A stretch of 31,840 nucleotides of DNA from positions 1-31,840 of the IMG/VR virus record IMGVR_UViG_3300042339_001575, one strand, 5' to 3'. This DNA is from a virus. Position numbers and translations under genes: made by a program. How positions within the stretch are numbered: the stretch's first letter is position 1; each line of letters starts with the position of its first letter. Below the pieces are notes generated by a model. That model ran no database searches and was not told where the DNA came from. It was given only the letters and a program-made list of their open reading frames with translations. This document shows, piece after piece, positions 2,720-25,456 of this stretch.

Positions 2720-5700
2720 ATGTCATATAAAATAACTTCGCCAGGTGGTGTTGAACTTAACGATAGTAGTGCAAATCCAAAGCTAGGATTACTAATTCCA
2801 ACCATTGACGATATTACCAATGCAAGTGGATCAGCTAAAGAAGGTTCTGTAATCTATAATAAATTAGATAATAATATTTATAGGTTTACTGGTGCAGCCT
2901 GGGAGTCAGCTGCTGGTAGTTCAGGCACAAGCGGTACATCTGGTTCAAGCGGAACTGCTGGTACTTCAGGTTCTAGTGCAATTGATGGTATTTCAAATGA
3001 GTCGTTTAATTCTTCATTAGTTACTGCATTTACTAATACCACTAATGATAGCGAAGTTATTACAATTGTAAATCAATTAAGTACTAAAATTGTTATTGGT
3101 GGATATTTTACAACTTTTAAAGGTGCTACCCGAAAGAGTTTAGTTAGATTAAATATTGACGGTTCTGAAGATATTGGATTTTATTCAAATTTAGGTACAG
3201 GTTTTAGTGCTGGAACTTATGTTGAAACAGTTAGTGTTCAAGCGGATGAAAAACTTATAATAGGTGGAGACTTTACCACATTTAATACTAATACCCGAAA
3301 CCGCTTAATCCGATTAAATTCAAATGGTACAGAAGATACTGCATTCTATACAAACTTAGGTTTGGGATTTAATGGAACAGTTATTCAATCCGCTGTTCAA
3401 GCCGATGGAAAGATTTTAGTAGGTGGAGTATTTACCACATTTGATGGAAATACCCGAAACCGCTTAATCCGATTAAATTCAGATGGTACAGAAGATACTG
3501 CATTCTATACAAACTTAGGCTCAGGTATTACTTCTCAAGTTAATGCAATTACAATTCAATCTGATAATTCTATATTAATCGGTACAGCAGCTGGCCTAAT
3601 TAAATTAAACGCAAATGGAACATTAGACTCAGCATTTAATTCAAACTTAGGTTCAAATGCAGTTGATATACTTGCAATTGCGTGTCAAGCCGACGGATTA
3701 ATATTAGTCGGCGGCGGATTTACTACATTTAATGGAACTACTAAAAATGGTCTAATCCGATTAAATTCAAATGGTACGGAAGATACTGCTTTTTATACTA
3801 AAATAGGAACAGGTTTTACTGGAGCATTTACCCCACTTGGATTCACAATAAATGTTCAATCAGACGGTCGTATACTTGTAGGTGGAGGTTTTGATTCATT
3901 TAATGGAGGTACTCGTCATAAGTTAGTTAGATTATTTGCAGATGGTACAGAAGATATTAGATTCTATGCCGCATTAGGAAGCGCCGTAGGCCCAGGTTCT
4001 CCAAGTGGATCTCAAATTAATACAATTTTACTTAAGAATAATTTAATATTGGTAGGCGGAGCTTTTACTACATTAAACGGAGTTACTCTAAACAATTTAT
4101 TTTCTTTATATAATAATTCAAACTTATCATCAGGGACAGTTGGTTCAAGCGGATCTAATGGAACTAACGGTTCTTCAGGATCAAGCGGAACCTCTGGAAC
4201 TTCTGGTGAATCTGGTTCTAATGGAAGCTCTGGAACTTCAGGTTCCAACGGCTCAAATGGTTCTTCGGGTACTTCAGGTTCCAACGGATCACATGGTAGC
4301 TCAGGTACTTCCGGTACTTCCGGATCAAATGGTAGCTCAGGTACTTCAGGTTCTAACGGATCTAATGGTTCAAGCGGAACTTCAGGTTCTAATGGTTCTT
4401 CAGGAACAAGTGGAACTTCAGGTTCTAACGGATCTAATGGATCAAGCGGAACTTCAGGTTCAAGTGGTTCTAATGGTAGCTCAGGAACATCAGGTTCAAG
4501 TGGTTCTAATGGATCAAGTGGAACTTCCGGCTCAAATGGATCAAGTGGAACTTCAGGTTCTAATGGATCAAATGGAAGCTCAGGAACTTCTGGTTCTAAC
4601 GGTTCTTCTGGTACGTCAGGTACATCAGGTTCTAATGGATCTTCTGGAACTTCAGGTTCTAATGGATCAAATGGAAGCTCTGGAACTTCTGGTTCTAATG
4701 GTTCAAGTGGAAGCTCTGGAACTTCTGGTTCTAATGGTTCAAGTGGAACTTCTGGTAGTTCTGGTTCAACTGGAACAAGCGGAACATCAGGTTCAAACGG
4801 TTCTTCAGGTACATCAGGTTCTAACGGTAGCTCAGGAACTTCTGGTTCTAATGGATCTAACGGTTCTTCTGGAACATCAGGTACTTCAGGTTCTAATGGC
4901 TCTTCTGGTACTTCAGGTACTTCTGGTTCAACCGGCTCAAACGGTAGCTCAGGAACTTCAGGTTCAAATGGTTCTAATGGAAGCTCAGGAACTTCTGGAA
5001 CTTCCGGCTCAAATGGTTCAAGCGGTACATCTGGTTCTAATGGAAGCTCTGGAACATCAGGTTCTAATGGCTCAAACGGTAGCTCAGGAACATCAGGTTC
5101 TAATGGCTCAAACGGTAGCTCAGGAACAAGCGGTACATCTGGTTCAAACGGTTTAAATGGAAGCTCAGGTACATCCGGATCAAATGGTTCTTCAGGAACT
5201 TCAGGTTCAAACGGTAGCTCAGGTACTTCAGGTACATCAGGTTCAAATGGTTCAAGCGGAACAAGCGGTTCAAATGGTAGCTCAGGAACATCTGGGACTA
5301 GTGGTTCTAATGGATCTTCTGGAACATCTGGTTCAAACGGTTCTTCCGGAACTTCAGGTTCTTCTGGAACATCTGGTTCTAATGGATCAAATGGAAGCTC
5401 TGGTACATCAGGCGAATCTGGCTCAAATGGAACTTCTGGAACAAGCGGTACTTCAGGTTCAACTGGAACAAGCGGAACTTCTGGTACTTCAGGAACTTCA
5501 GGTACAAGCGGTTCAAATGGTTCTTCCGGAACTTCCGGTTCTAATGGAAGCTCTGGTACATCTGGTTCTAATGGCTCAAATGGAAGCTCTGGTACTTCAG
5601 GTTCTAATGGATCTTCTGGTACTTCAGGTTCTAATGGATCAAATGGAAGCTCTGGAACTTCAGGTTCAAATGGTTCTTCAGGAACTAGTGGTACTTCAGG

Positions 5701-8700
5701 TTCGAATGGCTCAAATGGTAGCTCAGGAACTTCTGGTTCTAATGGGTCTTCTGGTACAAGTGGTACTTCTGGAACTTCTGGTTCAAATGGTTCTTCAGGA
5801 ACTTCAGGTTCTAATGGCAGTTCAGGTACTTCAGGTTCAAACGGTTCTTCCGGTACTAGCGGTACTTCTGGTTCAAATGGTTCTTCTGGAACAAGCGGTT
5901 CAAATGGTTCAAACGGATCATCCGGTACTTCAGGAACTTCAGGTTCAAACGGATCAAATGGTAGCTCAGGTACTTCAGGTTCAAACGGTTCTAGTGGAAC
6001 ATCTGGTACTTCTGGGTCAGATGGAACTTCTGGAACTAGTGGTACTTCAGGTTCAAACGGCTCAAATGGTAGCTCTGGAACAAGCGGAACTTCTGGTACA
6101 TCAGGTTCAAATGGTAGCTCTGGAACGAGTGGTTCAAATGGATCAAACGGTAGCTCAGGTACATCAGGTTCAAATGGTAGCTCTGGAACTTCAGGTTCTA
6201 ACGGGTCAAATGGATCATCTGGAACATCTGGTTCTAATGGATCAAATGGAAGCTCTGGTACTTCAGGAACAAGCGGTTCAAATGGATCATCTGGTACTTC
6301 AGGAACTTCAGGTTCAAATGGAAGCTCTGGAACATCTGGTTCTAATGGTAGTTCAGGAACATCAGGTACATCAGGTACGTCTGGAACATCAGGTTCAAAT
6401 GGCTCTTCTGGAACTTCCGGTTCTAATGGCTCAAATGGTTCTTCTGGAACTTCCGGCACAAGCGGATCAACCGGTTCTTCAGGAACAAGTGGAACATCAG
6501 GATCAAATGGATCAAGCGGTACTGCTGGTTCTTCTGGAACAAGCGGATCAAACGGTTCTTCCGGTACTTCAGGTTCAAATGGTTCAAGTGGAACTTCCGG
6601 TACTTCAGGTTCAAACGGATCACATGGTTCTTCTGGAACTTCAGGTTCAACTGGTTCTTCTGGAACAAGTGGAACCTCTGGAACTTCAGGTTCAACTGGT
6701 TCTTCTGGAACAAGTGGAACCTCTGGTACTTCTGGTTCAACTGGAACTTCAGGAACATCAGGTTCAAACGGCAGCTCAGGAACTTCTGGAACATCAGGTT
6801 CAAACGGCAGCTCAGGAACAAGCGGTTCTTCAGGAACTTCGGGTACTTCAGGTTCTAATGGTTCTTCTGGAACATCCGGTACTTCCGGTACATCTGGTTC
6901 AAACGGATCAAGTGGTACTTCTGGTTCTAATGGATCAAATGGAAGCTCAGGAACTAGTGGCACATCCGGTTCAAATGGCTCTAATGGAAGCTCTGGTACT
7001 TCAGGTTCTAATGGATCAAATGGTAGCTCTGGTACATCAGGTACTTCTGGAACATCCGGCTCAAATGGTTCTAACGGAAGCTCAGGAACTTCTGGTTCAA
7101 GTGGTACCTCAGGTACTTCCGGTTCTAACGGCTCTTCTGGTACTTCAGGCTCAAACGGTTCTTCTGGAACTTCAGGGTCAAATGGATCAAACGGTTCTTC
7201 TGGTACAAGTGGAACTTCAGGTTCAAATGGAACAAGCGGAACTAGCGGTTCTAATGGTTCAAGCGGAACTTCAGGTTCTAATGGATCAAGCGGAACCTCA
7301 GGTACTTCAGGAACATCCGGTTCGAATGGTTCAAATGGATCAAGCGGTACTTCAGGTTCTAATGGATCAAATGGAAGCTCGGGAACTTCTGGTTCTAATG
7401 GAAGCTCAGGTACGTCAGGTTCTAATGGTTCAAGTGGAACATCTGGTACTTCAGGTTCAAACGGCTCAAACGGTAGCTCAGGAACTTCAGGTTCTAATGG
7501 TTCAAGTGGAACCTCAGGTACTTCAGGTTCTAACGGAACCTCAGGAACATCAGGCTCAAATGGATCTAATGGTAGTTCAGGTACATCAGGTTCAAATGGA
7601 TCTAATGGAAGCTCGGGAACAAGTGGTACATCAGGAACATCCGGTACTTCAGGTTCTTCTGGAACATCAGGCACTTCCGGTTCAAACGGTTCTTCTGGAA
7701 CTTCTGGTTCTAATGGATCAAACGGTAGCTCAGGTACTTCAGGTTCTAATGGCTCTTCTGGTACTTCTGGAACATCAGGTTCAACTGGTACATCAGGAAC
7801 ATCAGGTTCAAGTGGAACTTCTGGAACTCGTGGTACATCAGGTACGTCAGGGACAGCCGGTTCTTCTGGAACTTCTGGCACAAGCGGATCTACTGGAACC
7901 TCAGGAACAAGTGGAATAAGCGGAGTAGATGGATCTAATGGTACATCAGGAACCTCCGGCACCTCAGGTTCGAATGGATCTTCTGGAACAAGCGGAACAT
8001 CTGGCTCTAATGGTTCTTCAGGATCAAGTGGAACCTCAGGAACATCTGGTTCAACTGGTACTTCTGGAACAAGCGGCTCAACTGGAACTTCTGGAACGTC
8101 AGGTTCTTCTGGAACGTCAGGTTCTTCTGGAACTTCTGGAACAAGTGGTACATCAGGTTCAAACGGTTCAAGTGGAACTTCAGGTTCTAACGGCTCAAAC
8201 GGTAGCTCAGGAACTTCTGGAACAAGAGGTACGTCTGGAACAAGCGGTTCTAATGGCTCAAGCGGTACTTCTGGAACTTCAGGCTCAACTGGTACTAGTG
8301 GTACTTCAGGTTCAAATGGTTCTTCCGGTTCAAGCGGTACCTCAGGTACTTCCGGTTCTAATGGCTCTTCTGGTACTTCAGGTTCAAACGGATCAAATGG
8401 TTCTTCTGGAACTTCAGGTTCAAATGGATCAAATGGTAGTTCCGGTACATCTGGTACTTCTGGTTCTAACGGATCAAATGGTACTTCAGGCTCAAATGGT
8501 TCAAACGGTTCAAGTGGAACTTCAGGTTCTAATGGATCTTCTGGAACATCTGGTACCTCTGGTTCTAATGGTTCTTCAGGAACCTCAGGTTCAACTGGCT
8601 CAAATGGTTCAAGTGGAACATCAGGTTCAAACGGTAGCTCAGGAACTTCAGGTTCTAATGGATCAAATGGTTCAAGCGGAACTTCAGGTTCAAATGGTTC

Positions 8701-11700
8701 TTCTGGAACTTCAGGCTCAAATGGTTCTTCTGGAACTTCAGGTTCTAATGGATCAAACGGTTCATCTGGAACTTCAGGTTCTAATGGATCAAGTGGTACA
8801 TCTGGTTCAAACGGTTCTTCTGGAACTTCAGGTTCTAATGGTTCTTCTGGAACAAGCGGAACCTCCGGTTCTAATGGTTCTTCTGGAACAAGCGGAACCT
8901 CCGGTTCTAATGGTAGTTCAGGTACTTCAGGTTCTAATGGATCTAATGGTTCTTCTGGTACTTCAGGTTCTAATGGATCAAACGGTTCATCTGGAACTTC
9001 TGGTTCTAATGGCTCAAGTGGTACATCTGGTTCAAACGGTTCTTCTGGAACTTCAGGTTCTAATGGATCAAATGGAAGCTCTGGTACTTCAGGTTCTAAT
9101 GGATCAAACGGTTCATCTGGAACTTCTGGTTCTAATGGCTCAAGTGGTACATCTGGTTCAAACGGTTCTTCTGGAACTTCAGGTTCTAATGGATCAAATG
9201 GAAGCTCTGGTACTTCAGGTTCTAATGGATCAAATGGAAGCTCTGGAACTTCAGGTTCTAATGGATCAAATGGAAGCTCTGGAACTAGTGGAACCTCAGG
9301 GTCTAATGGTTCAAATGGAAGCTCTGGAACTTCAGGCTCAACTGGTACTTCAGGTACATCAGGTTCTAACGGTACTTCAGGAACTTCAGGTTCAAATGGT
9401 TCAAGCGGTACATCAGGTTTAAATGGCTCAAATGGTTCAAGTGGAACATCAGGCTCAAATGGTTCTTCTGGAACTTCAGGTTCTAATGGATCTTCTGGAA
9501 CATCTGGTACCTCTGGTTCTAATGGTTCTTCTGGAACAAGCGGAACCTCCGGCTCAAATGGATCAAATGGTTCTTCTGGTACTTCTGGAACCTCAGGAAC
9601 AAGCGGAACAACTGGTTCAACTGGAACAAGCGGAACTTCAGGTTCAAGTGGATCAATTGGAACAAGTGGAACTAGTGGAACTTCAGGTACATCCGGTTCA
9701 AACGGTTCTTCTGGAACTTCAGGTTCTAATGGATCAAATGGAAGCTCAGGAACTTCGGGTTCTAATGGAAGCTCAGGTACTTCAGGTTCAAATGGATCAA
9801 ACGGTTCTTCAGGAACTTCAGGTTCAAACGGCTCTAATGGTAGCTCAGGTACGTCAGGCTCAAATGGATCTAATGGTAGCTCGGGAACTTCAGGTTCTTC
9901 TGGAACAAGAGGTACTTCAGGTACTTCCGGTACTAGTGGAACCTCAGGTTCTAATGGTAGCTCAGGAACTAGTGGAACCTCAGGTTCAAGCGGCTCAAAT
10001 GGTTCTTCTGGAACTTCTGGAACATCTGGTTCTAATGGTAGTTCAGGTACTTCTGGTACATCTGGCTCTAATGGATCAAATGGTTCTTCTGGTACTTCAG
10101 GTTCTAATGGATCAAACGGAAGCTCAGGTACATCAGGTTCTAATGGTTCTTCTGGAACAAGCGGTAGCTTAGGAACTTCTGGAACATCAGGTTCAAGCGG
10201 CTCAAATGGTTCTTCTGGAACTTCTGGAACATCTGGTTCTAATGGTTCTTCTGGTACTTCTGGTTCAAATGGATCAAACGGAAGCTCAGGAACATCAGGT
10301 TCTAATGGATCGAGTGGAAGCTCAGGAACGTCAGGTTCTAATGGTTCTTCTGGAACAAGCGGTAGCTTAGGAACTTCTGGAACATCAGGTTCAAACGGCT
10401 CAAATGGTTCTTCTGGTACTTCTGGTTCAAATGGATCAAATGGTTCTTCTGGTACTTCTGGTTCAAATGGATCAAACGGAAGCTCAGGAACATCAGGTTC
10501 TAATGGATCGAGTGGAAGCTCAGGAACGTCAGGTTCTAATGGATCAAGTGGAACTTCCGGTTCAAGTGGAACTTCTGGTTCTAATGGATCAAACGGAAGC
10601 TCAGGAACTTCAGGTTCAAATGGTTCTTCAGGAACTTCAGGTTCAAATGGCTCAAATGGTTCAAGTGGAACTTCAGGTACTTCAGGTTCAAATGGATCAA
10701 ACGGTTCAAGCGGAACATCAGGTTCAAATGGATCTAATGGATCAAGCGGAACATCCGGTACATCTGGTTCAAACGGATCAAATGGAAGCTCAGGAACTTC
10801 AGGTTCAAACGGCAGCTCTGGTACGTCAGGTACATCTGGTTCAAACGGATCAAATGGTTCTTCAGGTACTTCAGGCTCTAATGGATCTTCTGGAACTTCT
10901 GGTTCTAATGGCTCAAGCGGTACATCCGGCTCTAATGGTTCAAATGGTAGTTCAGGAACTTCAGGTTCTTCTGGAACAAGAGGTACTTCTGGTACTTCTG
11001 GTACTAGTGGAACTTCAGGAACATCAGGCTCAAACGGATCAAATGGTTCTTCTGGAACATCTGGAACTTCAGGTTCAAACGGCTCAAATGGAAGCTCTGG
11101 AACTAGTGGAACCTCAGGGTCTAATGGTTCATCTGGAACTTCTGGTTCTAATGGTTCAAGCGGTTCATCTGGTACTTCTGGAACAAGAGGTACTTCTGGA
11201 ACTTCTGGTACTTCAGGTACTTCCGGTTCTAATGGTTCTTCTGGAACTTCTGGTACTTCCGGTTCTAATGGTTCTTCTGGAACAAGTGGTACGTCTGGTT
11301 CAAATGGATCAAATGGAAGCTCTGGTACCTCTGGTTCTAATGGATCAAACGGAAGCTCAGGAACTTCAGGTTCTAATGGCTCAAGTGGAACATCTGGTTC
11401 AAACGGATCAAATGGAAGCTCTGGAACTTCTGGTACATCTGGTTCAAATGGCTCAAGCGGAAGCTCAGGAACTTCAGGCTCTAATGGAAGCTCAGGAACG
11501 TCGGGTTCAAACGGATCAAACGGTTCTTCAGGAACTTCTGGTTCAAGCGGTACATCCGGTTCTTCTGGCACAAGAGGTACTTCAGGTACTAGTGGTACCT
11601 CAGGTACATCAGGTTCAACTGGTACTTCTGGAACAAGCGGTACTTCTGGTTCTAATGGATCAAATGGAAGCTCAGGAACTTCAGGTTCAAACGGTTCAAA

Positions 11701-14700
11701 CGGGTCAAGCGGAACTTCAGGTTCTTCCGGCTTAACTGGTAGCTCAGGAACTAGTGGAACTTCCGGTTCTAATGGTTCTAGTGGTACATCAGGTTCAAAC
11801 GGTTCTAATGGTTCTTCAGGAACGTCAGGGTCAAACGGTTCTAACGGTTCTTCAGGAACGTCAGGGTCAAACGGATCTAATGGTTCTTCTGGAACTTCAG
11901 GTTCTAACGGTAGCTCAGGAACATCTGGTTCAAATGGATCAAACGGTAGCTCAGGAACATCTGGTTCAAATGGCTCTAATGGTAGCTCAGGAACTTCAGG
12001 ATCTTCAGGAACAAGAGGTACTTCAGGTACTTCTGGTACTAGTGGAACTTCAGGTTCAAACGGTTCATCTGGAACTTCAGGAACAAGCGGTTCAAACGGT
12101 TCAAGTGGAACTTCAGGTTCTAATGGATCAAATGGAAGCTCAGGAACTTCAGGTTCAAACGGTTCTTCTGGCACATCAGGTTCTAATGGTTCTTCTGGAA
12201 CTTCAGGAACCAGAGGTACTTCTGGTACATCTGGAACAAGCGGAACTTCCGGTTCAAACGGATCAAACGGAAGTTCTGGTACATCAGGTTCTAATGGCTC
12301 AAATGGATCAAGCGGTACTTCTGGTTCTAATGGCTCAAATGGTAGTTCAGGAACTTCAGGTTCTAATGGATCAAATGGAAGCTCTGGTACCTCAGGGTCT
12401 AATGGTTCTAATGGTTCTTCTGGAACTAGTGGAACTTCAGGTTCTAATGGATCTTCTGGAACATCTGGTACTTCAGGTTCTAATGGCTCAAACGGTAGCT
12501 CTGGTACTTCCGGCTCAAATGGTTCTTCAGGAACATCTGGTTCAAATGGATCAAACGGTTCAAGTGGAACGTCAGGTTCTAATGGTTCTTCTGGAACTTC
12601 AGGAACAAGAGGTTCTTCTGGAACTTCGGGAACAAGCGGAACATCAGGTTCAAATGGTTCTAACGGCTCAAGTGGTACCTCAGGTTCTAATGGATCAAAT
12701 GGTTCTTCTGGAACTTCTGGTTCTAATGGATCAAATGGTTCTTCTGGAACTTCAGGTTCTAACGGTAGCTCAGGTACTTCCGGTTCTAACGGCTCAAGCG
12801 GAACCTCAGGTTCAAACGGCTCAAATGGTTCAAGTGGAACTTCAGGTTCAAACGGCTCAAATGGTAGCTCAGGAACATCTGGTTCAAACGGAAGCTCAGG
12901 AACTTCAGGTACTTCAGGTTCAAATGGTTCTAATGGCTCAAGTGGAACATCAGGTTCAAATGGTTCTTCAGGAACATCAGGTTCAAATGGATCAAACGGT
13001 TCAAGCGGTACTTCTGGTTCAAATGGTTCAAACGGTTCTAGTGGAACTTCAGGTACCTCAGGCTCTAACGGCTCAAATGGTAGCTCAGGAACATCCGGCT
13101 CAAATGGTTCTTCAGGAACTTCTGGAACAAGAGGTACTTCAGGTACTTCTGGTTCAAACGGTAGCTCAGGAACATCCGGCTCAAATGGTTCAAACGGTTC
13201 AAGCGGTACGTCTGGCTCAAACGGTTCTTCGGGAACTTCTGGTTCAAATGGTAGCTCAGGAACCTCTGGTTCAAACGGTTCAAGCGGTAGCTCAGGAACA
13301 TCCGGCTCAAATGGTTCAAACGGTTCAAGCGGTACTTCTGGCTCAAATGGAAGCTCAGGTACTTCAGGTTCTAATGGTTCTAACGGAAGTTCTGGTACAT
13401 CAGGTTCAAATGGCTCAAATGGATCTTCAGGTACATCAGGTTCAAATGGTTCTAACGGAAGTTCTGGTACATCAGGTTCAAATGGCTCTAACGGAAGTTC
13501 TGGTACATCAGGTTCTAATGGTTCTTCAGGAACTTCCGGCTCAAACGGCTCAAACGGCTCTAGTGGAACTTCTGGTTCAAATGGCAGTTCCGGTACTTCA
13601 GGAACACGTGGTACTTCTGGTACATCCGGTTCTAATGGAAGCTCAGGAACGTCCGGCACATCAGGCTCAACTGGAGCAAGTGGAGCAGCAATTAGTGACG
13701 GTTGGGATTGGGGTACTCCATTAGCCAGTACTAAAATTTATAGTAATAATGGTAATTTAGATGCTGCAACTTCTCTATTAAACATAGCGGAAGTTTCATT
13801 AACTTCAACCAATTATAGTGGAGTGTATCCATCAATTGGTACTGGCACACTAATTAAGACAAATGGTGGAATTGGTGGTCAAATTGTATATTATAGAACA
13901 ACTGGTGTAGGTTTTGATACTGGAATATATTGGGAATTTCCAGTAACTTATGTTTCAGGTACACCTTGGACGCCATCTGCTGGCACTGATATTATTGTTG
14001 ACATATCTGCTGCAGGTGTATCAGGCTCGTCTGGTACTTCAGGAACACGTGGTACTTCAGGTACTTCAGGCTCAAATGGTTCTTCTGGAACCTCAGGTTC
14101 TAATGGATCAAATGGAAGCTCGGGTACATCAGGTTCTAATGGTTCTTCTGGAACTTCAGGTTCTAACGGATCAAACGGTAGCTCTGGTTCTTCTGGAACA
14201 CGAGGTACGTCAGGAACCTCTGGTACATCTGGTTCAAACGGTTCTTCTGGAACATCAGGTACTTCAGGTTCTAATGGCAGCTCAGGTACATCAGGAACTT
14301 CAGGATCAGCTGGTACTAGTGGTACAAGTTTTATATGGAAAGGTATTTGGGTTGGTGGTACTCTTTATGCGATTAATGATGTAATTTCATTTAACGGAAG
14401 TTCTTATATTTCTATAGTATCAAGTAATATAGGAAATAACCCGTCTACTAGTCCAGCGCAATGGACGCTAATGGCATCTGCTGGGTCAAACGGCTCATCA
14501 GGTACAAGTGGTACATCAGGCTCAAATGGTAGCTCTGGAACTTCTGGTTCAAATGGCTCAAATGGAAGTTCTGGAACTTCAGGAACAAGAGGTACTTCTG
14601 GAACTTCTGGTTCAAATGGATCATCTGGTACTTCTGGTACATCCGGTTCAAACGGTTCTTCTGGAACTTCTGGTTCTAATGGATCAAATGGCTCATCAGG

Positions 14701-15508: not shown

Positions 15509-15511
15509 GTA

Positions 15512-16204
15512 ATGCCGATAGACGGAACACCAACTGGAGTAATGGCGGTCGTTTGGGCGCCAGACGACAAATCTTCGATTGCTGCACTATTAACTCAACA
15601 GTCTGGGGCTTCTGCCAGTGTCGGGAATCAGATTTACCCAGATAAGACGGGCGCTCCTGAGTTTAGATGGAAAATACTCAGTGGTACATATGCTGGTACT
15701 TATGACATCAACCGAAATGACCCACAAGGATTAAGCTATTGGGCTGCAGCCAACGCAGTTGCAGGTGCAATTGGATTTGACCAGTTTTATAATTATCGAC
15801 ACTGGACTGATGAGCACACATATGACGGCGAAGTTATGAATAATTCTTCGTTTGACATAATGGTTGAATTAGTGATAAACGATGGAACCAGTGGTCCTTA
15901 TACCTATTTTACTAATACCCCATTTAGTACTGGCCTCACGAGTATAAACGGTGGACCAGTTACATATTACTATCAGCACTTCATGCCAAATGCAGACTTT
16001 GAGCATACCATTAATTTAGACAATAGTGCACCATTCCCAGTAAACTTAGTGCAGCTTCGGCTAACTGACATTGATACTGGCTTTAATATTGCCGACTTTG
16101 TTGGTGGACCTCCAATATCGATACCTCCAGGCCCGATCTCGTTTTTCACCCCTGGATTACCATTTTTTAGAAGATATTCTATTACAATTGAAATTGCTCC
16201 ATAA
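15512..16204 (+). CDS. Hypothetical virion-associated protein, 230 aa
   Basis: I do not recognise a family. The 230-residue product starts at an ATG three bases after the fibre stop (TAA GTA ATG) and lies in the same frame, so stop readthrough would fuse it to the giant fibre; nothing else suggests that this happens. The N-terminal part has 'WAPDDKSSIAALLTQQSG' and 'RWKILSGTYAGTYDINRND'. The rest is rich in aromatic and beta-forming residues, with a Pro/Gly-rich turn segment near the C-terminus ('GGPPISIPPGP'). There is no signal peptide or membrane segment. Its position between the fibre and the glycan cassette suggests a structural protein or fibre accessory; that is inference only. Confidence 0.75.
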   Translation: MPIDGTPTGVMAVVWAPDDKSSIAALLTQQSGASASVGNQIYPDKTGAPEFRWKILSGTYAGTYDINRNDPQGLSYWAAANAVAGAIGFDQFYNYRHWTDEHTYDGEVMNNSSFDIMVELVINDGTSGPYTYFTNTPFSTGLTSINGGPVTYYYQHFMPNADFEHTINLDNSAPFPVNLVQLRLTDIDTGFNIADFVGGPPISIPPGPISFFTPGLPFFRRYSITIEIAP

Positions 16205-16232
16205 TTAGTTAAAAACAAAAATAAATAAAATC

Positions 16233-16472
16233 ATGACTACTAATATTCAAAACTATTCAATACTCGGCAAAACTGCAACCAGTATTAAATTTATACCCAT
16301 GACCTATGAATTAGGCGCAACCTCAGTTTCTGTGATTTATCAATTAATGGATAGCGGCAATGCAATTATCTGTAGTGGTGCAGTTCGGTTAACTGATATA
16401 TCTGATTGGGGTACAAATGATAGTGTTATTGTTACCAAAGTCTTAACTGCCCTAGGCTTAACTGCTGCATAA
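16233..16472 (+). CDS. Hypothetical small protein, 79 aa
   Basis: I recognise no family. The start ATG at 16233 follows an AT-rich leader containing ATAAATAAAA and no Shine-Dalgarno. The protein looks like a single small beta-rich domain, with alternating hydrophobic strands around 'TSVSVIYQLMDSGNAIICSG' and a final 'VLTALGLTAA'. There is no membrane segment. Similar short beta proteins often sit beside fibre genes in large myophages, so a virion role is plausible but unproven. It is separated from the glycosyltransferase gene by 65 bases that contain a strong hairpin. Confidence 0.65.
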   Translation: MTTNIQNYSILGKTATSIKFIPMTYELGATSVSVIYQLMDSGNAIICSGAVRLTDISDWGTNDSVIVTKVLTALGLTAA

Positions 16473-16498
16473 TTTTTTTAAGATTACATAACCTTATT

Positions 16499-16530
16499 GC
16501 TAAACTTTAGTATAAAATAAAAAGTTTAGC
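16499..16530 (+). promoter_or_regulatory. Perfect 10-bp hairpin just upstream of the glycosyltransferase start
   Basis: GCTAAACTTT (16499-16508) is the exact reverse complement of AAAGTTTAGC (16521-16530). The 12-base AT-only-but-one loop contains TATAAAATA. The stem ends seven bases before the ATG at 16538, next to a weak AAAAGG. No U-tract follows on the plus strand, so a terminator is unlikely in that direction. It may modulate ribosome access to the glycosylation cassette, stabilise the mRNA end, or present a promoter-like TATA sequence. Confidence 0.5.
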
Positions 16531-16537
16531 AAAAGGC

Positions 16538-19348
16538 ATGTCGATTAAAATTAAAGCGCACACCTCAATTATTGGGGAAACTGGATACAATTGTCATTCT
16601 AGAAATTTCTTTAAAGCCCTAAATTCTCTAGAAGATTTAAGAGTTGATGTCAGAAATTGGACAGTAGGTTCAACCTGGACGGGTTATAATAATGATGAAC
16701 CTCATAATGATGAGTATTATATTGATACTGAGTTAAAAACAATCCTAACTCAACAAACTTTACAGACCCCAAACCTTTCACAAGAGTTTCCACTATATCA
16801 AAACTATCCAAATCCTGGAAAACCTGATGTTCACATTGTCTTAAATGATGTTAATCATAAATATTTTGGTGATAAGTATGATGGCCCAAAAATTGCCTAT
16901 AATGTTTGGGAAACTACTAAATATCCAGAAGATTTTTTTAAACACTTACAAACCTTTGACCAAGTTTGGGTTCCAAGCAGCTGGCAAAAAGAGTGCACAA
17001 TTGTCCAAGGAATTCGAGCCGATAAAGTAAAGGTTGTACCTGAGGGAGTTGATACCCAAATGTTTAAACCCATTTCTCGAGAGACCTCATTTCCAGAAGG
17101 TCGCCCATTTAGATTTGTTGTAGTTGGCCGCTGGGAATATCGCAAATCTACTAAAGAAATTATAAAAGCATTCATTGATACCTTTTCAGAAGATGAAAAT
17201 GTTGAACTTATCCTAAATGTTGAAAATCCATTTGCAAATGACGACTGTTCAAATACTCAAGAACGTCTTGCCAAATTTGGCTTAACTCATAAAGGCATTA
17301 AAATACTTACTCATTTAAGCAAAGCTGACTATGTCAACTTATTACAAACGGCTGATGTATTTGTTTCTTGTGCTCGTAGTGAAGGTTGGAATCTTCCACT
17401 AATTGAGGCAATGGCCTGCGGTACCCCATCAATCTATTCTGATTGGGGAGCTCAATTAGAATTTGCTGCAGGTAAAGGTTTACCAGTAGCAACCCATGGA
17501 GAAGTTCCAGCTGGTGTTGCAAATGACGAATCTTGGAATCCAAATGCTCCAGGTAATTTCGTTGAGCCAAACTTTGAAGATCTTAAGCTTAGACTTAGAG
17601 AAGTTTATGATAATTATGAAATTTATAAAAAATCCGCGCTAATGGAATCAAAACAAATCCGAACCCAATTCACTTGGGAAAATGCAGCAAAAATCGCACA
17701 AGATCACATCCAGGACCTCATTCAACCTGAGGTAAATGAATACTCAACTGACTTTGCATGGGTGACCTGCGGTAACCTGGCCTATATGCCGATCATTCAG
17801 AAATTAGCTGAATCGCTATTGGAATTCTCAAACCGTAAACTTATTGTTTATGGAATTGACTGTGATGTTCCGTTTGACTATTTGCCAAATGTAATTGCCC
17901 GAAAATTAACAATTCCCTACTATTCAAACTATGATAAATGGTATTGGAAGCAATATGCCTGTCTTGCAGCCTTTGAAGAAAGTTTTGAAAATTTTGTTTG
18001 GTTGGATGGTGATATTATTGCAAACCATACAATCGATAAATTATCAGAGCATTTTGCAAATATCGAAAACTATCCATTAGCTGATATTCATGTACAGGAA
18101 GATTTTATTGGATATTATACAAAACCTGACGGTTCAAGAGGTCAGCAATTATTTAATGAAAATTTATGCAAAGCCAAAGGAGTTAAGCGTCTTGCTACCA
18201 AAGCCCATATTTGCATGTACGTATACAATCGAAATTGCGAATGGTGGTTTAATGAAATCTTAACAGTATATAAAGAAACTGATCTTGCGGACTATCCAAG
18301 TTTATTACAATGGAATGATGAAGGTATTGATAATTACCTAAGATGCAAATATGGTTATAATAGGTTTTTACCAATTTCAAATTTTGATGTTTCTGAATGG
18401 GACGGCGATTTACTTGGAACAACTGGCAAAGCAATGGAACACTTTATTTCTTTTTGGAGAGATCAAGGCCCTAAGAATTTTGGAAAAGTATACGGCTGGC
18501 AATTTATCCCAAAGAATAAAGACCAAATTCTATACTTTCATGGAAATAAAAATCTAGGCTTTGCTCAAATCATGATTGACCATATTAAAGCTCAAAGAGA
18601 CCAAAATTTCCATGATACTGAATATTTCTTTGTTGCTAAGGACGAAATTAAAAATTTAGGTTCAATTAAACAAGTACAAGGTGGTACAATGGATATTGCC
18701 TATAAATACGGATGGGATTATGCAATTTATCATGAAATTTATAACTTAACTGATTATGAACATCCACACCGCTCAGAAAATCCAGTTGTTAAAATCCAAC
18801 CAGGAGATGTAGTGGTTGATCTTGGTGGAAATATTGGAATCTTTACTCGGTATGCATATCATATGGGAGCAAGTAAAATTGTAACCTTTGAACCTGATCG
18901 TAGGTATTTTGAGATCCTAAAACAAAATGCGCCAGCAAATGCCGTCCTATTTAATGCAGCAATTGGAGATCAATTAGGAACCTTAACCTTAACTGAAAGT
19001 TCTCACTTAGGTGGCTCTAACTTATGGCATCAAAAAGATCCAACTGTTACTCAATACGACGTTAATCTATATACCCTAGACTATATTTTAGACAATGGTT
19101 TAATTGACCGAATTGACTTCTTAAAGGTAGATATTGAAGGTTCTGAAATTATTGCACTAAAAGGCATTAGTGATGCTAACTTAGCTAAGATTCGAAATGT
19201 TGCAGTTGAATATCATCATGAACACCTTAATTTTAATGAAGAATTACGTGATGAATTTATTGTCAGATTTAACAGATTAGGTTTTAATTCATACTTACTA
19301 TTTTGCGGCCCTAATAATGCACTACAATTAATTTATTTTTGGAAATAA
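16538..19348 (+). CDS. Three-domain GT4 glycosyltransferase / GT-A glycosyltransferase / FkbM methyltransferase
   Basis: The 936-aa product has three apparent enzyme domains. Residues ~1-400 resemble a GT-B retaining glycosyltransferase of family GT4, with the nucleotide-sugar E-x7-E motif at E282-E290 ('EGWNLPLIE') and 'VPEGVDTQMFKP'. Residues ~405-690 look like a GT-A fold enzyme, with a DGD metal-binding motif at 490-492 ('FVWLDGDIIAN'). Residues ~740-936 match FkbM-type methyltransferases, with SAM-binding 'VVDLGGNIGIFT', 'FEPD' and 'KVDIEGSE'. FkbM enzymes O-methylate sugars or related hydroxyls. No membrane segment is seen, so it should act in the cytosol. It is the first gene of a three-gene cassette, with one base before the next gene. 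It probably builds and caps a short glycan; sugar identity and acceptor are unknown. Confidence 0.85.
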   Translation: MSIKIKAHTSIIGETGYNCHSRNFFKALNSLEDLRVDVRNWTVGSTWTGYNNDEPHNDEYYIDTELKTILTQQTLQTPNLSQEFPLYQNYPNPGKPDVHIVLNDVNHKYFGDKYDGPKIAYNVWETTKYPEDFFKHLQTFDQVWVPSSWQKECTIVQGIRADKVKVVPEGVDTQMFKPISRETSFPEGRPFRFVVVGRWEYRKSTKEIIKAFIDTFSEDENVELILNVENPFANDDCSNTQERLAKFGLTHKGIKILTHLSKADYVNLLQTADVFVSCARSEGWNLPLIEAMACGTPSIYSDWGAQLEFAAGKGLPVATHGEVPAGVANDESWNPNAPGNFVEPNFEDLKLRLREVYDNYEIYKKSALMESKQIRTQFTWENAAKIAQDHIQDLIQPEVNEYSTDFAWVTCGNLAYMPIIQKLAESLLEFSNRKLIVYGIDCDVPFDYLPNVIARKLTIPYYSNYDKWYWKQYACLAAFEESFENFVWLDGDIIANHTIDKLSEHFANIENYPLADIHVQEDFIGYYTKPDGSRGQQLFNENLCKAKGVKRLATKAHICMYVYNRNCEWWFNEILTVYKETDLADYPSLLQWNDEGIDNYLRCKYGYNRFLPISNFDVSEWDGDLLGTTGKAMEHFISFWRDQGPKNFGKVYGWQFIPKNKDQILYFHGNKNLGFAQIMIDHIKAQRDQNFHDTEYFFVAKDEIKNLGSIKQVQGGTMDIAYKYGWDYAIYHEIYNLTDYEHPHRSENPVVKIQPGDVVVDLGGNIGIFTRYAYHMGASKIVTFEPDRRYFEILKQNAPANAVLFNAAIGDQLGTLTLTESSHLGGSNLWHQKDPTVTQYDVNLYTLDYILDNGLIDRIDFLKVDIEGSEIIALKGISDANLAKIRNVAVEYHHEHLNFNEELRDEFIVRFNRLGFNSYLLFCGPNNALQLIYFWK

Positions 19349-19349
19349 T

Positions 19350-20015
19350 ATGAGATCACTAAATACAATTGCCCTTTCTAAAGGCACTGACAAATCTTCT
19401 GAAATTCACAACTATTGTGTAAAATACGAGAAGTGGTTACCATTTAACCAATTAGAGCCTTTAAAAATTCTTGAAATTGGGGTATTGCATGGAGAGTCTC
19501 TTTCTACTTGGAGAGAATACTATCCAAATGCAACAATTATTGGCATTGATATTGAACCTTCATGCAAACAATACGAAAATCCAGATAAAAAGGTTTTTGT
19601 AGAAATTGGGTCTCAAGATGATGCTAATTTTTTAAAATGGGTTGCCCAAAAATGGGGACCATTTGATATGGTACTTGATGATGGGTCTCACATTAACCGT
19701 CATGTAATTACCTCATTTAATCATTTAATTGACCACGTAAAACCGGAAGGAGTATATGTAATTGAAGATACTTGCACGTCGTATTGGGAAGATTACGAAG
19801 GCGGTTTTAAACACCCAGGTTCCTCTATTGAATTTACAAAAAATCTAGTAGATGATATTAATTTTAATGGGCAAATGCAAGAAGAATTTTGGAACGTGCA
19901 TGCTAGAAGAGAAGACTTCTTAACTAAACAGACAAAAGAAAAAGGTTTAACAATTCGCACTGATATTGAATCAGTAAATTTCCTAAATGGAATAACAATA
20001 ATAACAAAAAGATAA
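19350..20015 (+). CDS. Class I SAM sugar O-methyltransferase, MycE-like
   Basis: The 221-aa product has the pattern of the metal-dependent sugar O-methyltransferases related to MycE: an N-terminal 'GTDKSSEIHNY', SAM motif 'ILEIGVLHGESL', acidic loop 'GIDIEP', and the metal/catalytic signature 'VLDDGSH' followed by 'YVIEDTCTSYW'. MycE-type enzymes methylate a sugar hydroxyl using SAM and a divalent metal, with Asp and His of DDGSH as key residues. The visible protein corresponds to the catalytic domain alone. It starts one base after the preceding glycosyltransferase stop and ends six bases before the next gene, so the three genes are surely co-transcribed. Likely role: methylating a sugar laid down by the flanking transferases. 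The family call is good; the substrate is inference. Confidence 0.78.
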   Translation: MRSLNTIALSKGTDKSSEIHNYCVKYEKWLPFNQLEPLKILEIGVLHGESLSTWREYYPNATIIGIDIEPSCKQYENPDKKVFVEIGSQDDANFLKWVAQKWGPFDMVLDDGSHINRHVITSFNHLIDHVKPEGVYVIEDTCTSYWEDYEGGFKHPGSSIEFTKNLVDDINFNGQMQEEFWNVHARREDFLTKQTKEKGLTIRTDIESVNFLNGITIITKR

Positions 20016-20021
20016 GTAAAA

Positions 20022-22754
20022 ATGGCACATCCTCAACAGCAAGAATTTTGTAAAAAAATGAGTGGTATTTTCCCAAAATATTTCACTGGCAAAAAAGTTT
20101 TAGATATTGGATCATTGGACATAAATGGCAATAACCGATTTATGCTAACCAACTGTAATTATATTGGATTAGACGTGGGAGAAGGCCAAAATGTTGATGT
20201 TATCCAAGTTGCTCATTTATATGATGCACCAGACGAGCAGTTTGACTTGATAATTTCAACTGAAGTATTTGAACATGATATGTTCTATGAAATGTCATTA
20301 CAAAACATTATTCGAATGCTAAAACCTGGTGGAGCATTTATATTTACATGTGCTTCAATTGGAAGACCTGAACATGGAACCAGAAAGTCAGATGGAAGTT
20401 GGGCAGCTCCATTGCTTGCAAATATTTCAGAAGAATGGTCTGATTATTATAAGAACTTAACCGAAGAAGATATTCATAAAGTAAAAGGTTTTGACGAAGC
20501 TTTTCCAGATGGAGTTTTTGAATATAATTCAAACCCAGGCGATCTATATTTCTTTGGAGTTAAAGGTGGAATTGCAAATGACATAAAATACTCAGTAGAT
20601 AATAGACCTTCAATAATTAGGCCGAATGAATATCCTGATGATATTTTTGTTGTTGATACTTGGCCAAATACTCCAGAAAAAGAATCTGACCTAATTGAGT
20701 GTATTAAAAAACTTAGAGAATTTTCAGGAATTCCAATCTTATTGGTTTCGCATTATGCAATTAAACCGGAAATTCAAAAATTAGTTGACTATTATTTGTA
20801 TGATAAAGAAAATCCACTGCTATTAAATTCTGAATTTGAAGAATATAAAGTAGGCAGCGGTAGATGGTGTACATTTGGAAAAACTAGAGTTGATACAGAA
20901 ATGGAATATCACCATGACTATGCAATTTGGAGATCAATGACACATGCTTTTAATTTCTGTAAATATCTAGGAAAGAAGATGATTCACTTTATGGAATATG
21001 ATAATCTACTTGATACCTTTCAATATCGCCAAGCCTTTTTAGAAAGAGCTCATCAGCATGATGCCGTAATTTATGAATATCATGAAGGCTCGGTAACTGA
21101 TACTCACCTAGCTAAATTTATGGCAACCTTTATTTTCTCAATTAAAACTGAGGTTGCCCTAAATATTATAAATGAAGTAAAAACAAAAAAGGATTACTTT
21201 ATGGATCGCCCAAATGGTTGGCAATTAGAAAGAGTATTTTTACACTATTTAGAAAAACACGCTAAGGATATTTGGGTAACTAATTATATTGCAAATTCAA
21301 ATGAATTAAATACACAAGCTGTTTGGAATAGAGATGGTATCCTAAGAGACGATGCTAAATTTCAAATTTATACAGCAGCTGACGATTTTAATAATTTATA
21401 TTTACATCTAGTTTCAGGATTTCACGATGAACCTGCAACCAAAGATTACCTACTTGAAATTAAGTATAATGGAACAGTGCAGTTTACTACTCTTAAAAAG
21501 GGAGACTTTCTACTTATTAAATTAGGCGAATATCGTAAAGGTTATACAGTAACTGTTAATTATTTAGGTAAATGCGCATTCACTCAATTTTTAAATGATG
21601 ACTTCCAAAATTTTGCAAAAATGAATCATGTAACAATTGATGGAGTTCAGGCACTACCTACCGTAAATCATAATTTAGTAGATGGACCGTTTGTTGAATT
21701 AAAAACTACAAGTCCAATGAAATATCAAGTAGACTTTATTGATAATGAAACTGACAAATTAGTTTATTCAACAAAATTAAGCGGCGGAGCGTGGGCAAAA
21801 AGTTCAATCAAATATTTTAAAGATTGGAAAATTAAAGTTACGGACCAGAACGGAAATCCAGTAATAATATTTAATACTGACCTAAAAGGCAAGCGTGTCT
21901 ATATTCCACTAGAGTCAAAAGCACTAGGCGATACTTTAGCATGGTTTCCGTATGTTGAAGAATTTAGAAAGAAGCACGATTGTATTATAATCTGTTCAAC
22001 TTTTTGGAATCAACTATTTAAAGATACTTATCCAAATATTGAATTAATTGAACCTGGCCAAATGGTAACTAATTTACATGCAATGTACAGAATTGGATGG
22101 TTCCATAATGGAGATAATATTGATCGTGAAAAAAATCCTAGAGATTTTAAATTAGGTCCATTACAAAGAACTGCAACCGATATTTTAGGTTTGGAATATA
22201 AAGAGGTTAAACCAATTATTAATTATCCAACTGGTCCAATAGTTAAGAAAAAAGTAGGCCTTGGAATTCATAGTACTGCTCAAGCAAAATATTGGAATAA
22301 TCCAACCGGCTGGCAAGAAGTTACAGATTGGTTAATTGCAAATGGTTATGAACCTGTAATATTATCTAGAGAAGAAGACGGTTATATGGGAAACCGCAAT
22401 CCGGTTGGAGCTGCTAAACTTGAAGCTGGTACAATTGACCGAGTAATTACTGAATTAACTGAATGCGCAGCATTTATTGGAATAAGTAGTGGATTAACTT
22501 GGCTAGCTTGGGTAACAAATACTCCAAGTATTCAAATCTCCGGTTTTACTGAACCTTATAATGAACCAGATGGCGATATTATTAAATTAGCTGCACCAAC
22601 TGGAGCTTGTTCAGGTTGCGCAAACCGATTAAGGCTTAATGCTGGTGATTGGAATTGGTGCCCAGATCAAAAAGGTACACCTCGTCAATTCGAATGTTCA
22701 AAATTAATCACTGCTGATCAGGTAATTGAAAAGTTAAAGACAATTCTAATATAG
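20022..22754 (+). CDS. Methyltransferase / GT-A-like / TibC-Aah-family O-heptosyltransferase fusion
   Basis: The 910-aa product appears to be a fusion. Residues ~15-185 are a class I methyltransferase ('KVLDIGSLDINGNNRF', 'STEVFEHD', 'MLKPGGAFIFTCAS'). Residues ~200-430 look like a nucleotide-sugar-transferase-type domain with 'HFMEYDNLL' as a possible metal site. Residues ~445-610 are beta-rich. Residues ~620-910 match the bacterial autotransporter heptosyltransferase (TibC/Aah) family, a GT9-like fold: 'VYIPLESKALGDTLAWFPYVEEF' (first 20 residues characteristic), 'GLGIHSTAQAKYWNNP' and 'GISSGLTWLAW'. A four-Cys finger lies at C863, C866, C880 and C892 (C-x2-C-x13-C-x11-C). TibC binds iron through such a finger and adds heptose to serines of adhesins in the cytosol. 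Here the nearest Ser-rich target is the fibre encoded upstream. Confidence 0.85.
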   Translation: MAHPQQQEFCKKMSGIFPKYFTGKKVLDIGSLDINGNNRFMLTNCNYIGLDVGEGQNVDVIQVAHLYDAPDEQFDLIISTEVFEHDMFYEMSLQNIIRMLKPGGAFIFTCASIGRPEHGTRKSDGSWAAPLLANISEEWSDYYKNLTEEDIHKVKGFDEAFPDGVFEYNSNPGDLYFFGVKGGIANDIKYSVDNRPSIIRPNEYPDDIFVVDTWPNTPEKESDLIECIKKLREFSGIPILLVSHYAIKPEIQKLVDYYLYDKENPLLLNSEFEEYKVGSGRWCTFGKTRVDTEMEYHHDYAIWRSMTHAFNFCKYLGKKMIHFMEYDNLLDTFQYRQAFLERAHQHDAVIYEYHEGSVTDTHLAKFMATFIFSIKTEVALNIINEVKTKKDYFMDRPNGWQLERVFLHYLEKHAKDIWVTNYIANSNELNTQAVWNRDGILRDDAKFQIYTAADDFNNLYLHLVSGFHDEPATKDYLLEIKYNGTVQFTTLKKGDFLLIKLGEYRKGYTVTVNYLGKCAFTQFLNDDFQNFAKMNHVTIDGVQALPTVNHNLVDGPFVELKTTSPMKYQVDFIDNETDKLVYSTKLSGGAWAKSSIKYFKDWKIKVTDQNGNPVIIFNTDLKGKRVYIPLESKALGDTLAWFPYVEEFRKKHDCIIICSTFWNQLFKDTYPNIELIEPGQMVTNLHAMYRIGWFHNGDNIDREKNPRDFKLGPLQRTATDILGLEYKEVKPIINYPTGPIVKKKVGLGIHSTAQAKYWNNPTGWQEVTDWLIANGYEPVILSREEDGYMGNRNPVGAAKLEAGTIDRVITELTECAAFIGISSGLTWLAWVTNTPSIQISGFTEPYNEPDGDIIKLAAPTGACSGCANRLRLNAGDWNWCPDQKGTPRQFECSKLITADQVIEKLKTILI

Positions 22755-22764
22755 ATAATTCTAT

Positions 22765-23382
22765 ATGCTATTAAACGCCAGACAAAACAGTTTTCTCATA
22801 AACTTACCAATGGACTTCTTTAATGATGTAGTACAGCAAAAGTACAACAAATATTATAGAAGTCTGCTATTGCCATATAAGTCATTATCTGATTTTATGG
22901 CATCAACTATACAAACTGTGAATTTTCCAGGATTTTCTTCAACTTTACCAACTCAAATCCGAACACTTGGCAAGATTCAAGAATTACAGAGTGCAAAACC
23001 AATAGCTGATCAATTTACTAGAGAGCTTAAATTAACTTTTAAGTTAACTGATGCATACCTAAACTATTTTATATTTTTAGATAATGCGCTAAATTATTTA
23101 GAACCAGCAAATGTTAATCCAGAGAATCTTGGCAATAATTCATTAGGCCAAGCGTTAACGGTAAATCCAATCTCAAATGTAAATCATCCATTCTTTCATC
23201 CAATCCGATTAACTCTCTTAAATAATGAAGGTTATGCAGTTTCGTCTATTATTTTTAATAGACCAATGCTAAAGTCATTAAGTGAAATGAATCTATCATA
23301 TTCATCAATAACTCCGCAGTTTACAACTTTCACTGCAACTTTCCAATATTATAATTTTGATCTGGAATTAGATTTTGACTAA
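22765..23382 (+). CDS. Probable tail tube protein (gp19-like fold)
   Basis: The 205-aa product is not a close relative of any protein I can name, but the order of its elements parallels T4 gp19: an early 'VNFPGFS' loop, then 'QFTRELKLTFKLTD', 'YFIFLDNAL', an insertion, 'HPIRLTLLNNEGYAVSSIIF', and a final 'PQFTTFTATFQYYNFDLELDF', which resembles the last strand 'IQTFEVTLALDYW' of gp19. Such proteins polymerise to form the inner tube of a contractile tail. A gp54- or gp48-type tube-initiator protein is the main alternative. It starts 11 bases after the heptosyltransferase stop. Its TAA abuts the stop codon of the convergent minus-strand gene with no bases between. Confidence 0.55.
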   Translation: MLLNARQNSFLINLPMDFFNDVVQQKYNKYYRSLLLPYKSLSDFMASTIQTVNFPGFSSTLPTQIRTLGKIQELQSAKPIADQFTRELKLTFKLTDAYLNYFIFLDNALNYLEPANVNPENLGNNSLGQALTVNPISNVNHPFFHPIRLTLLNNEGYAVSSIIFNRPMLKSLSEMNLSYSSITPQFTTFTATFQYYNFDLELDFD

Positions 23383-25089: not shown

Positions 25090-25456
25090 TGGTGGAGATA
25101 GGCGGAATCGAACCGCCGTCCAAAAAACCTCTAATTAAACTTTCATTTACACGCTTAGTCCATTTTTCTAATTGGACGAAATATCTTATTCTTTAACGAC
25201 TTAAAGTTAAAGTCGGTAACGGTTCGACTTGGCCGCTACGCCATGCTGGTTTTGCAACTTTGGTTAGTCAAGCAGTTGCCGCTTGGTTACTTATGCAGCT
25301 AAAAGCTCTTCAGTAACAGGAGTGTTAACGCCTTGGTTAACTAGGCTCCAGAAAGTAGTGTTGCCACTTATTGTTTGTAATACATTTTAACGAGTCTTAG
25401 CATCATCCTCGGCGTGCAAGCGTAACCGATAATTTCTGTCAAAACCGGTTATCCCC
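25090..25456 (-). ncRNA. ssrA: Phage-encoded tmRNA (one-piece)
   Basis: Read on the minus strand, the RNA starts GGGGATA and ends TATCTCCACCA, giving a 7-bp acceptor stem with one G-U and an encoded CCA. The 5' side continues with GGTTTTGACAG (the usual GGUUUYGACAG). The 3' side has a perfect T arm, GGCGG-TTCGATT-CCGCC. Total length is 367 nt, normal for tmRNA. An in-frame tag ORF ends at TAA (25293-25291). Taking the resume codon after TAGTT, by analogy with TAGTC in E. coli, the tag is NQGVNTPVTEELLAA (15 aa, codons 25338-25294), ending in the LAA degradation signal. The exact resume codon is uncertain. tmRNA with SmpB rescues stalled ribosomes and tags the products; SmpB is not in this window. 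It is flanked by tail genes, so it belongs to the phage genome and not to a host segment. Confidence 0.92.

Follow-up and report, generated by a model that had tools for sequence, protein, structure and literature searches.

The stretch of DNA analysed here (the window: all 31,840 nt of the IMG/VR virus fragment IMGVR_UViG_3300042339_001575, positions 1-31,840) comes from a large uncultured tailed phage, out of its late gene region, and carries the gene of a giant fibre followed by a cassette of glycosyltransferase and methyltransferase genes (16538-22754). Judging from sequence comparisons, we consider it highly probable that this cassette serves protein O-glycosylation, with the neighbouring fibre, through its Ser-rich Gly-X-Y shaft, as the acceptor. 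The last enzyme of the cassette belongs to the TibC/Aah family and has conserved active-site and iron-binding residues, and the coupling of TibC to Ser-type Gly-X-Y proteins is repeated and specific, in phages and in bacteria. The original prediction, in which a Ser/Thr-rich fibre is glycosylated by the phage's own enzymes, is supported by co-occurrence, by loss and by the donor-gene loci described below; Thr is doubtful as an acceptor because TibC has been demonstrated to act on Ser but not on Thr (PMC4358343).

The cassette ends in a TibC/Aah-family fusion enzyme

The cassette begins 1030 bp after the end of the fibre gene, and its three packed genes lie at the coordinates originally given for them, within about 1 kb of the fibre. 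The first encodes a 936-amino-acid (aa) glycosyltransferase/methyltransferase (16538..19348, +) with a GT4 domain at residues ~1-400 (PF00534, 2e-13), a middle domain at ~404-680 and an FkbM domain at ~739-916 (TIGR01444, 1e-24). It is followed by a 221-aa class I methyltransferase (19350..20015, +; Methyltransf_24, 4e-7; phrog_21658), which is without a counterpart in lineage E of the relatives (L024, L025), and by a 910-aa fusion (20022..22754, +) of an S-adenosylmethionine-dependent class I methyltransferase (residues 1-181; phrog_32762; PF13489, 2.5e-8), a middle domain (~205-530) and a TibC/Aah-family domain (548-908). The C-terminal ~360 residues of this fusion match TIGR04414 (hepto_Aah_TibC) at 1.8e-79 and 267 bits, against a curated cut-off of 200 bits, in an alignment that takes in model positions 12-374 of 374, and the same domain matches E. 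coli TibC (4RAP) at 2e-50 (phmmer). When an AlphaFold2 (AF2) model of the fusion, with a mean predicted local distance difference test (pLDDT) score of 68, was compared to the PDB using Foldseek, the top matches were all TibC chains; the template modelling (TM) scores by target of 0.76-0.80 against 4RAP/4RB4 support a predicted GT-B fold with an N-terminal beta-barrel.

The roles of the catalytic base, the donor-site residues and the iron finger of TibC have been described (Yao et al., 2014, PMC4358343). The equivalents of D110, T226, K230 and W305 are invariant in 66/66 viral TibC clusters, and all four iron-finger cysteines (Cys339, 342, 358 and 370) are kept in the same 66; the active-site Asp of the window fusion is Asp637. 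At the stereoselectivity residue (position 300) the window has Ser, as does Aah.

Most of the domains named in the original prediction are recovered by profile (GT4, FkbM, class I methyltransferase and TibC/Aah), and two are not: the suspected GT-A domain, for which there are a WLDGD motif in the middle domain of the 936-aa protein and a low-confidence model, and a MycE-like domain, where the profile that matches is a generic methyltransferase one. The AF2 model of the 936-aa protein was built from 7 sequences (pLDDT 56) and is unusable for the middle domain, with Foldseek backing the GT-B part only. For the middle domain of the TibC fusion (205-530), the matches to the collagen glycosyltransferase LH3 are weak, with a TM of ~0.2, and were not used as evidence.

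The fibre shaft is a Ser-rich, proline-free Gly-X-Y repeat

The 4262-aa fibre is encoded in a single frame (2720..15508, +) and is composed of 35.0% Ser, 29.4% Gly, 13.8% Thr and 10.0% Asn. Perfect Gly-X-Y runs make up 82% of the protein, with 1161 triplets when runs of five or more are counted, and the longest run extends unbroken through 1062 triplets (residues 472-3657). There is no Pro in the Gly-X-Y tracts, with 16 Pro in the whole protein; the length, the composition and the proline-free repeat agree with how the fibre had first been described. The N-terminal part contains a short Gly-X-Y run and a DUF5122 beta-propeller, profiles detect a weak CBM5/12-like insert, and the C-terminus is a Peptidase_S74 chaperone (PF13884, 1.6e-16), and the label 'fibre' is therefore sound. 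The long perfect repeat speaks for a collagen-like shaft and the lack of Pro in the repeat speaks against it. The collagen triple helix rises 0.286 nm per residue; if the shaft adopts this structure, the main run would be ~0.9 µm long, and a fibre trimer, if that is what is formed, would present up to ~4,270 Ser over all its tracts.

At the Y position of the shaft there are 751 Ser and 21 Thr, and 97.5% of the triplets hold at least one Ser versus 85% expected from the column frequencies (Ser-less triplets: 2.5% observed, 14.9% expected). The shaft Ser residues are drawn from both the TCN and AGY codon families, between which single steps go via Thr or Cys, and a Y position that is nevertheless rich in Ser suggests selection for Ser, repeat copying being the alternative source of the bias. 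A universal rule of one Ser in every triplet was considered and rejected, as the anti-correlation seen in the window fibre does not appear in most other lineages. The repeat is also spanned by an antisense open frame of 3215 aa (4012-13659, -), probably a by-product of repeat codon use and not a gene.

A second Gly-X-Y fibre protein, which the original prediction had missed, is represented by its 3' part at the window start (2..2638, +; 878 aa inside the window, cut at its edge), and contains 188 Gly-X-Y triplets, chiefly GTS, GSS and GST. On a sister contig (G183), three consecutive Ser-type Gly-X-Y proteins of 644, 2448 and ~4244 aa stand ahead of the cassette; the 2448-aa protein is the second repeat protein of the window and the 644-aa protein precedes it. 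By their coordinates, the largest fibre of G183 and that of the window differ by 54 bases, or six triplets, as expected from in-frame drift of repeat length or from assembly differences. The two sister Gly-X-Y fibres are probably acceptors of the cassette as well.

TibC genes lie beside Ser-type Gly-X-Y fibres in many phages

A scan with the window protein returned 37 viral loci from several lineages, with identities from 100% down to ~32%, and a search with a profile of the TibC domain alone found at least 592 stretches of viral sequence, of which 80 were kept, together with 32 bacterial or archaeal contigs. In lineages A-G, a Ser-type Gly-X-Y open reading frame (ORF) is found close by at every locus with enough flank; in the most distant lineage (L036, L037), the nearest such ORF encodes 203 aa and lies ~6.6 kb away. 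Adjacency is kept even where gene order has changed, as in L027 and L032, in which the fibre (2585 aa) is downstream and not upstream of TibC. When only phage clusters flanked by 6 kb or more on both sides are counted, a Gly-X-Y ORF lies within 7.5 kb of 22/25 multidomain TibC genes versus 2/15 standalone ones (Fisher 4e-6). Related phages with the cassette and no Ser/Thr-rich structural protein would have spoken against the original prediction: among the close relatives with enough flank, none lacks a Ser-type fibre nearby, and the tract-less loci are those of standalone enzymes.

Large fibres are encoded near members of the standalone phage TibC clade, and these may be the acceptor there. 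Near one such gene, L110:18226-21084 (-) encodes a Ser/Gly-rich protein, built of STIGGG.NTISG repeats and with its frame open towards the contig side, that is a possible alternative acceptor.

The pairing is also found in an isolated phage, Microcystis phage Mel-JY01 (PP395634.1, L039), which encodes a 1227-aa GT4-TibC fusion and, upstream, a GTSG/GSSG-repeat fibre of ~1771 aa whose gene is interrupted where the record was linearised, the frame being continuous across the record ends. Mel-JY01 differs from the window phage in being a cyanophage and in having one fused enzyme. In its record, the strand opposite the 3' part of the fibre gene carries annotations of hypothetical genes.

The association is with the serine repeat and not with collagen-likeness

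We also approached the association from the acceptor side, drawing contigs by DNA pattern and independently of TibC. Three patterns were used: seven G-[Ser/Thr]-[Ser/Thr]-type triplets (Ser-type), five Gly-Pro-X triplets (Pro-type, picked to test collagen-likeness as such) and an unrelated 14-mer (random); the sets are samples and not censuses, and related contigs are counted separately. TIGR04414 was found in 20/50 of the sampled Ser-type contigs, 19 of them over the cut-off, versus 0/50 of the Pro-type contigs (Fisher 1.8e-7), 48/50 of which were verified as true Gly-X-Y tracts, and 0/45 of the random ones. One contig that belongs to both tract sets and has TibC (L208) is excluded from the Pro-type count, which would become 1/51 with it. 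The co-occurrence foreseen in the original prediction is thus found, with negative controls, and the difference between the Ser-type and Pro-type sets indicates a link to the serine repeat rather than to collagen-likeness as such.

It is very improbable that TibC and Ser-type fibres co-occur only through the shared ancestry or habitat of large aquatic phages, with no functional link. Such an effect could arise since the contigs are mainly metagenomic and uncorrected for kinship, and bigger contigs carry more genes of all kinds, but when only contigs of ≤80 kb are considered TibC is still present in 9/35 Ser-type contigs versus 0/85 controls (p=7e-6). Moreover, a syntenic sister clade has lost both partners, and adjacency itself recurs, including in bacterial chromosomes where TibC is paired with GTSG/GSSG-repeat lipoproteins or secreted proteins that are unrelated to the fibres.

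TibC and the Ser-type tract are lost together in a sister clade

The sister clade was recognised through tail-tube relatives of 54-56% identity, and keeps the order tube, gp15, gp6, TerS, TerL, PhoH and sigma factor. In 677 kb of its contig sequence we found neither TibC nor any Gly-[Ser/Thr] tract. Its giant fibres, which measure 1584-2240 aa in the stretches that we read, keep the S74 tip and have no Gly-X-Y shaft. A 635-kb phage without TibC likewise had no Gly-[Ser/Thr] tract, and such a tract is present in 12/17 TibC-positive records; among the tract-less ones, G017 ends ~2 kb past TibC and G024 has a GISGTSG-type tract that falls outside the pattern.

These comparisons also bear on whether the acceptor might be some other phage or host protein, such as the tail tube, the 230-aa protein between fibre and cassette or a host adhesin. 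A tail-tube-like gene does lie directly 3' of the TibC gene (22765..23382, +; phrog_45, 7e-7), in a late structural context, and tail tubes of mycobacteriophages are reported to be glycosylated, in work cited in PMC12619734. However, the sister clade has the tail-tube gene without TibC, and the 230-aa gene (15512..16204, +), which matches nothing in Pfam or PHROG and has a counterpart of 45-48% identity in lineage B, is missing from the gene lists of the TibC-positive lineages C-F. No other feature that we saw tracks TibC as the Ser-type Gly-X-Y tract does, and an acceptor other than the shaft seems improbable.

Bacterial TibC genes adjoin small Gly-X-Ser proteins

In Methylococcaceae and other gammaproteobacterial or related genomes, a TibC homologue adjoins a small GTSG/GSSG-repeat lipoprotein or secreted protein, often with an acidic C-terminus (L127, L128, L133, L137, L139, L141-L144); the methanotroph Methylomicrobium sp. 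RS1 is one example with a GTSG protein next to its TibC homologue. Tracts of the form G[ST][ST]x5 occur in 9/10 whole genomes (3.6-6.1 Mb), and in eight of those nine, all or all but one of them fall at the TibC locus. The phage pairing is therefore one case of a wider pairing. Nothing recognisable as an autotransporter or as a Gly-X-Y protein adjoins TibC at the Paraburkholderia/Caballeronia loci (L150-L154).

The bacterial loci are relevant to another possibility, that the cassette alters host surface glycans (lipopolysaccharide, O-antigen or capsule, for example in superinfection exclusion) or phage DNA, and that its adjacency to the fibre is incidental. Phage glycosyltransferases often act in these ways, GT4 and FkbM domains are also found in surface polysaccharide pathways, and DNA or serotype modification has been suggested for the glycosyltransferases of aquatic jumbo phages (PMC12619734). 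TibC/Aah enzymes, however, act on protein Ser in the cytosol (PMC4358343), TibC is the part of the cassette that recurs most widely, and its coupling to Ser-type and not Pro-type Gly-X-Y repeats is found again in bacterial chromosomes and outlasts changes of gene order. We regard modification of host glycans or DNA as unlikely.

HldE-like genes beside phage TibC suggest an ADP-heptose donor

In many phages, TibC is directly followed by two genes, often overlapping it, whose best NCBIfam matches are HldE-like: an HldE2-like heptose-1-phosphate adenylyltransferase (6e-29) and an HldE1-like heptose-7-phosphate kinase (1e-33), both below the equivalog cut-offs. This pair, a partial ADP-heptose pathway, lies directly 3' of TibC in L088, L089, L112, L079 and others. 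L069 and L071 have HldE2, HldE1 and a Ser-type fibre, in this order, after TibC, and in L072 TibC is followed by the kinase-like HldE1 and a Ser-type fibre. A gmhA gene (251 bits, over the cut-off; W03:430182-430640) is found in the 636-kb TibC phage L041 (LR756504.1), ~27 kb from a standalone TibC and with no Gly-X-Y tract in the phage. The HldE-like neighbours and gmhA suggest a tie between phage TibC domains and ADP-heptose.

Several results weigh against fibre heptosylation by the window cassette. Thirty of the 50 Ser-type tract contigs are without TibC, many of them being fragments, and 13/15 clusters of standalone phage TibC genes lack a Gly-X-Y neighbour within 7.5 kb. The known acceptors of TibC are beta-helical autotransporter passengers and not Gly-X-Y shafts. 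As to the donor, TibC Arg286, which contacts the adenine, is replaced by Val in the window, so that the donor could differ, and models of gmhA, gmhB and HldE2 recognised no such gene in the near relatives on 270-271 kb contigs. A full phage-encoded ADP-heptose pathway in the window lineage was accordingly rejected, and these phages would depend on the host for the donor.

The last two points favour a variant in which the fibre Ser residues are O-glycosylated with a sugar other than heptose, the donor of TibC having changed. Arg at position 286 is retained in 2/66 viral TibC clusters. The replacement is only weak evidence against heptose, because most HldE-linked TibCs share it: Val occupies the position in 14/17 HldE-linked clusters, and the equivalents of Thr226, Lys230 and Trp305 are kept. 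A different sugar on the same Ser residues is a minority prospect, and heptose is the better candidate.

A proposed mechanism and its relation to known systems

We infer the acceptor, the sugar, the order of glycan extension and methylation, and the purpose as follows. The TibC-type domain would act in the cytosol, ahead of fibre assembly, and place a single sugar on many Ser residues of the shaft; this sugar would most likely be heptose, supplied by the host as ADP-heptose. The GT4 domain, together with the suspected GT-A domain, would probably lengthen the glycan, and the FkbM and class I methyltransferases would probably cap it by methylation. The modification might serve to stiffen or stabilise a proline-free shaft of up to ~0.9 µm, or to shield it, and glycosylation could be an answer to the stability of a proline-free helix. 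As a broader and more tentative idea, for which the odds are somewhat less than even, the TibC clade may form a general donor-enzyme-acceptor module that heptosylates the Ser of Gly-X-Ser repeats, with the sugar taking over the stabilising role of hydroxyproline in phages, and with surface lipoproteins and secreted proteins as the acceptors in bacteria.

The closest known systems are the TibC/Aah bacterial autotransporter heptosyltransferases (BAHT; TIGR04414; PDB 4RAP, 4RB4), which the window enzyme resembles in its catalytic domain, the catalytic Asp, the donor-site Thr, Lys and Trp, the four-Cys iron finger and the adjoining gene of a Ser-rich repetitive, here likely, acceptor. It differs in being phage-encoded, in its fusion to a methyltransferase and a further domain (relatives have a fusion to GT4 instead), in the Gly-X-Y fibre that would replace a beta-helical autotransporter as acceptor and in the replacement of Arg286. 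In contrast to AIDA-I/Aah and TibA/TibC, there is no adjacent AIDA-type autotransporter, the neighbours in the window being phage tail genes and the Gly-X-Y fibre.

To our knowledge, no TibC pairing exists for BclA of Bacillus anthracis. This collagen-like surface filament carries an oligosaccharide with an O-methylated terminal sugar (PMC6222408; cited in PMC9614988), but its glycan is rhamnose-based and its location is the spore exosporium. The L230 collagen lysyl hydroxylase/glucosyltransferase of Mimivirus is a viral glycosyltransferase that acts on the virus's own proline-poor collagen-like proteins, although the enzyme is unrelated, the glucose is hydroxylysine-linked and the virus infects amoebae (PMC9614988). 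Phage-encoded glycosylation of virion proteins is reported for mycobacteriophages, where, in the account cited in PMC12619734 (Freeman et al., 2023), it concerns the C-termini of capsid and tail tube and not a repetitive fibre shaft. Phage virion glycosylation, viral collagen glycosylation (mimivirus L230) and TibC itself are therefore already known. Large Bacteroidota phages from aquatic habitats were noted in 2025 to have four core glycosyltransferases, in a paper that names neither TibC nor collagen-like fibres (PMC12619734). A literature search, with many journals outside its scope, returned no paper joining TibC or ADP-heptose to phage fibres and no account of phage TibC-family enzymes or of a pairing of TibC with Gly-X-Ser proteins.

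If our proposal is true, these phages have a widespread, genetically defined protein-glycosylation system whose likely donor is encoded in some phage genomes, and Gly-X-Ser repeats are a new acceptor class for an enzyme family of bacterial adhesin glycosylation. It would account for the solubility or stiffness of extremely long proline-free Gly-X-Y phage fibres, would be relevant to receptor binding and fibre shielding, and would provide a compact enzyme/acceptor pair for the glyco-engineering of collagen-like polymers.

Genomic setting of the cassette

Downstream of the cassette, the window encodes the tail tube, a gp15-like sheath stabiliser, a gp6-like baseplate wedge, the terminase subunits and PhoH, and cassette-bearing relatives are found on 270-271 kb contigs. 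The tail-tube-like gene is followed by that of a 286-aa protein (23383-24243, -), a candidate variable decoration or adhesin, whose counterpart site in relatives holds 477-480-aa or unrelated proteins, and by that of the T4 gp15-like tail sheath stabiliser (24261..25016, -; PF16724, 4.7e-8). Between the sheath stabiliser and the baseplate genes is a phage-borne tmRNA gene (25090-25456, -), which scores 118.7 bits against Rfam RF00023 and whose tag, GNTTFWSLVNQGVNTPVTEELLAA, is long. A sigma-factor-like protein (31232-31840, +, continuing beyond the window end) adjoins PhoH and is kept in the sister clade.
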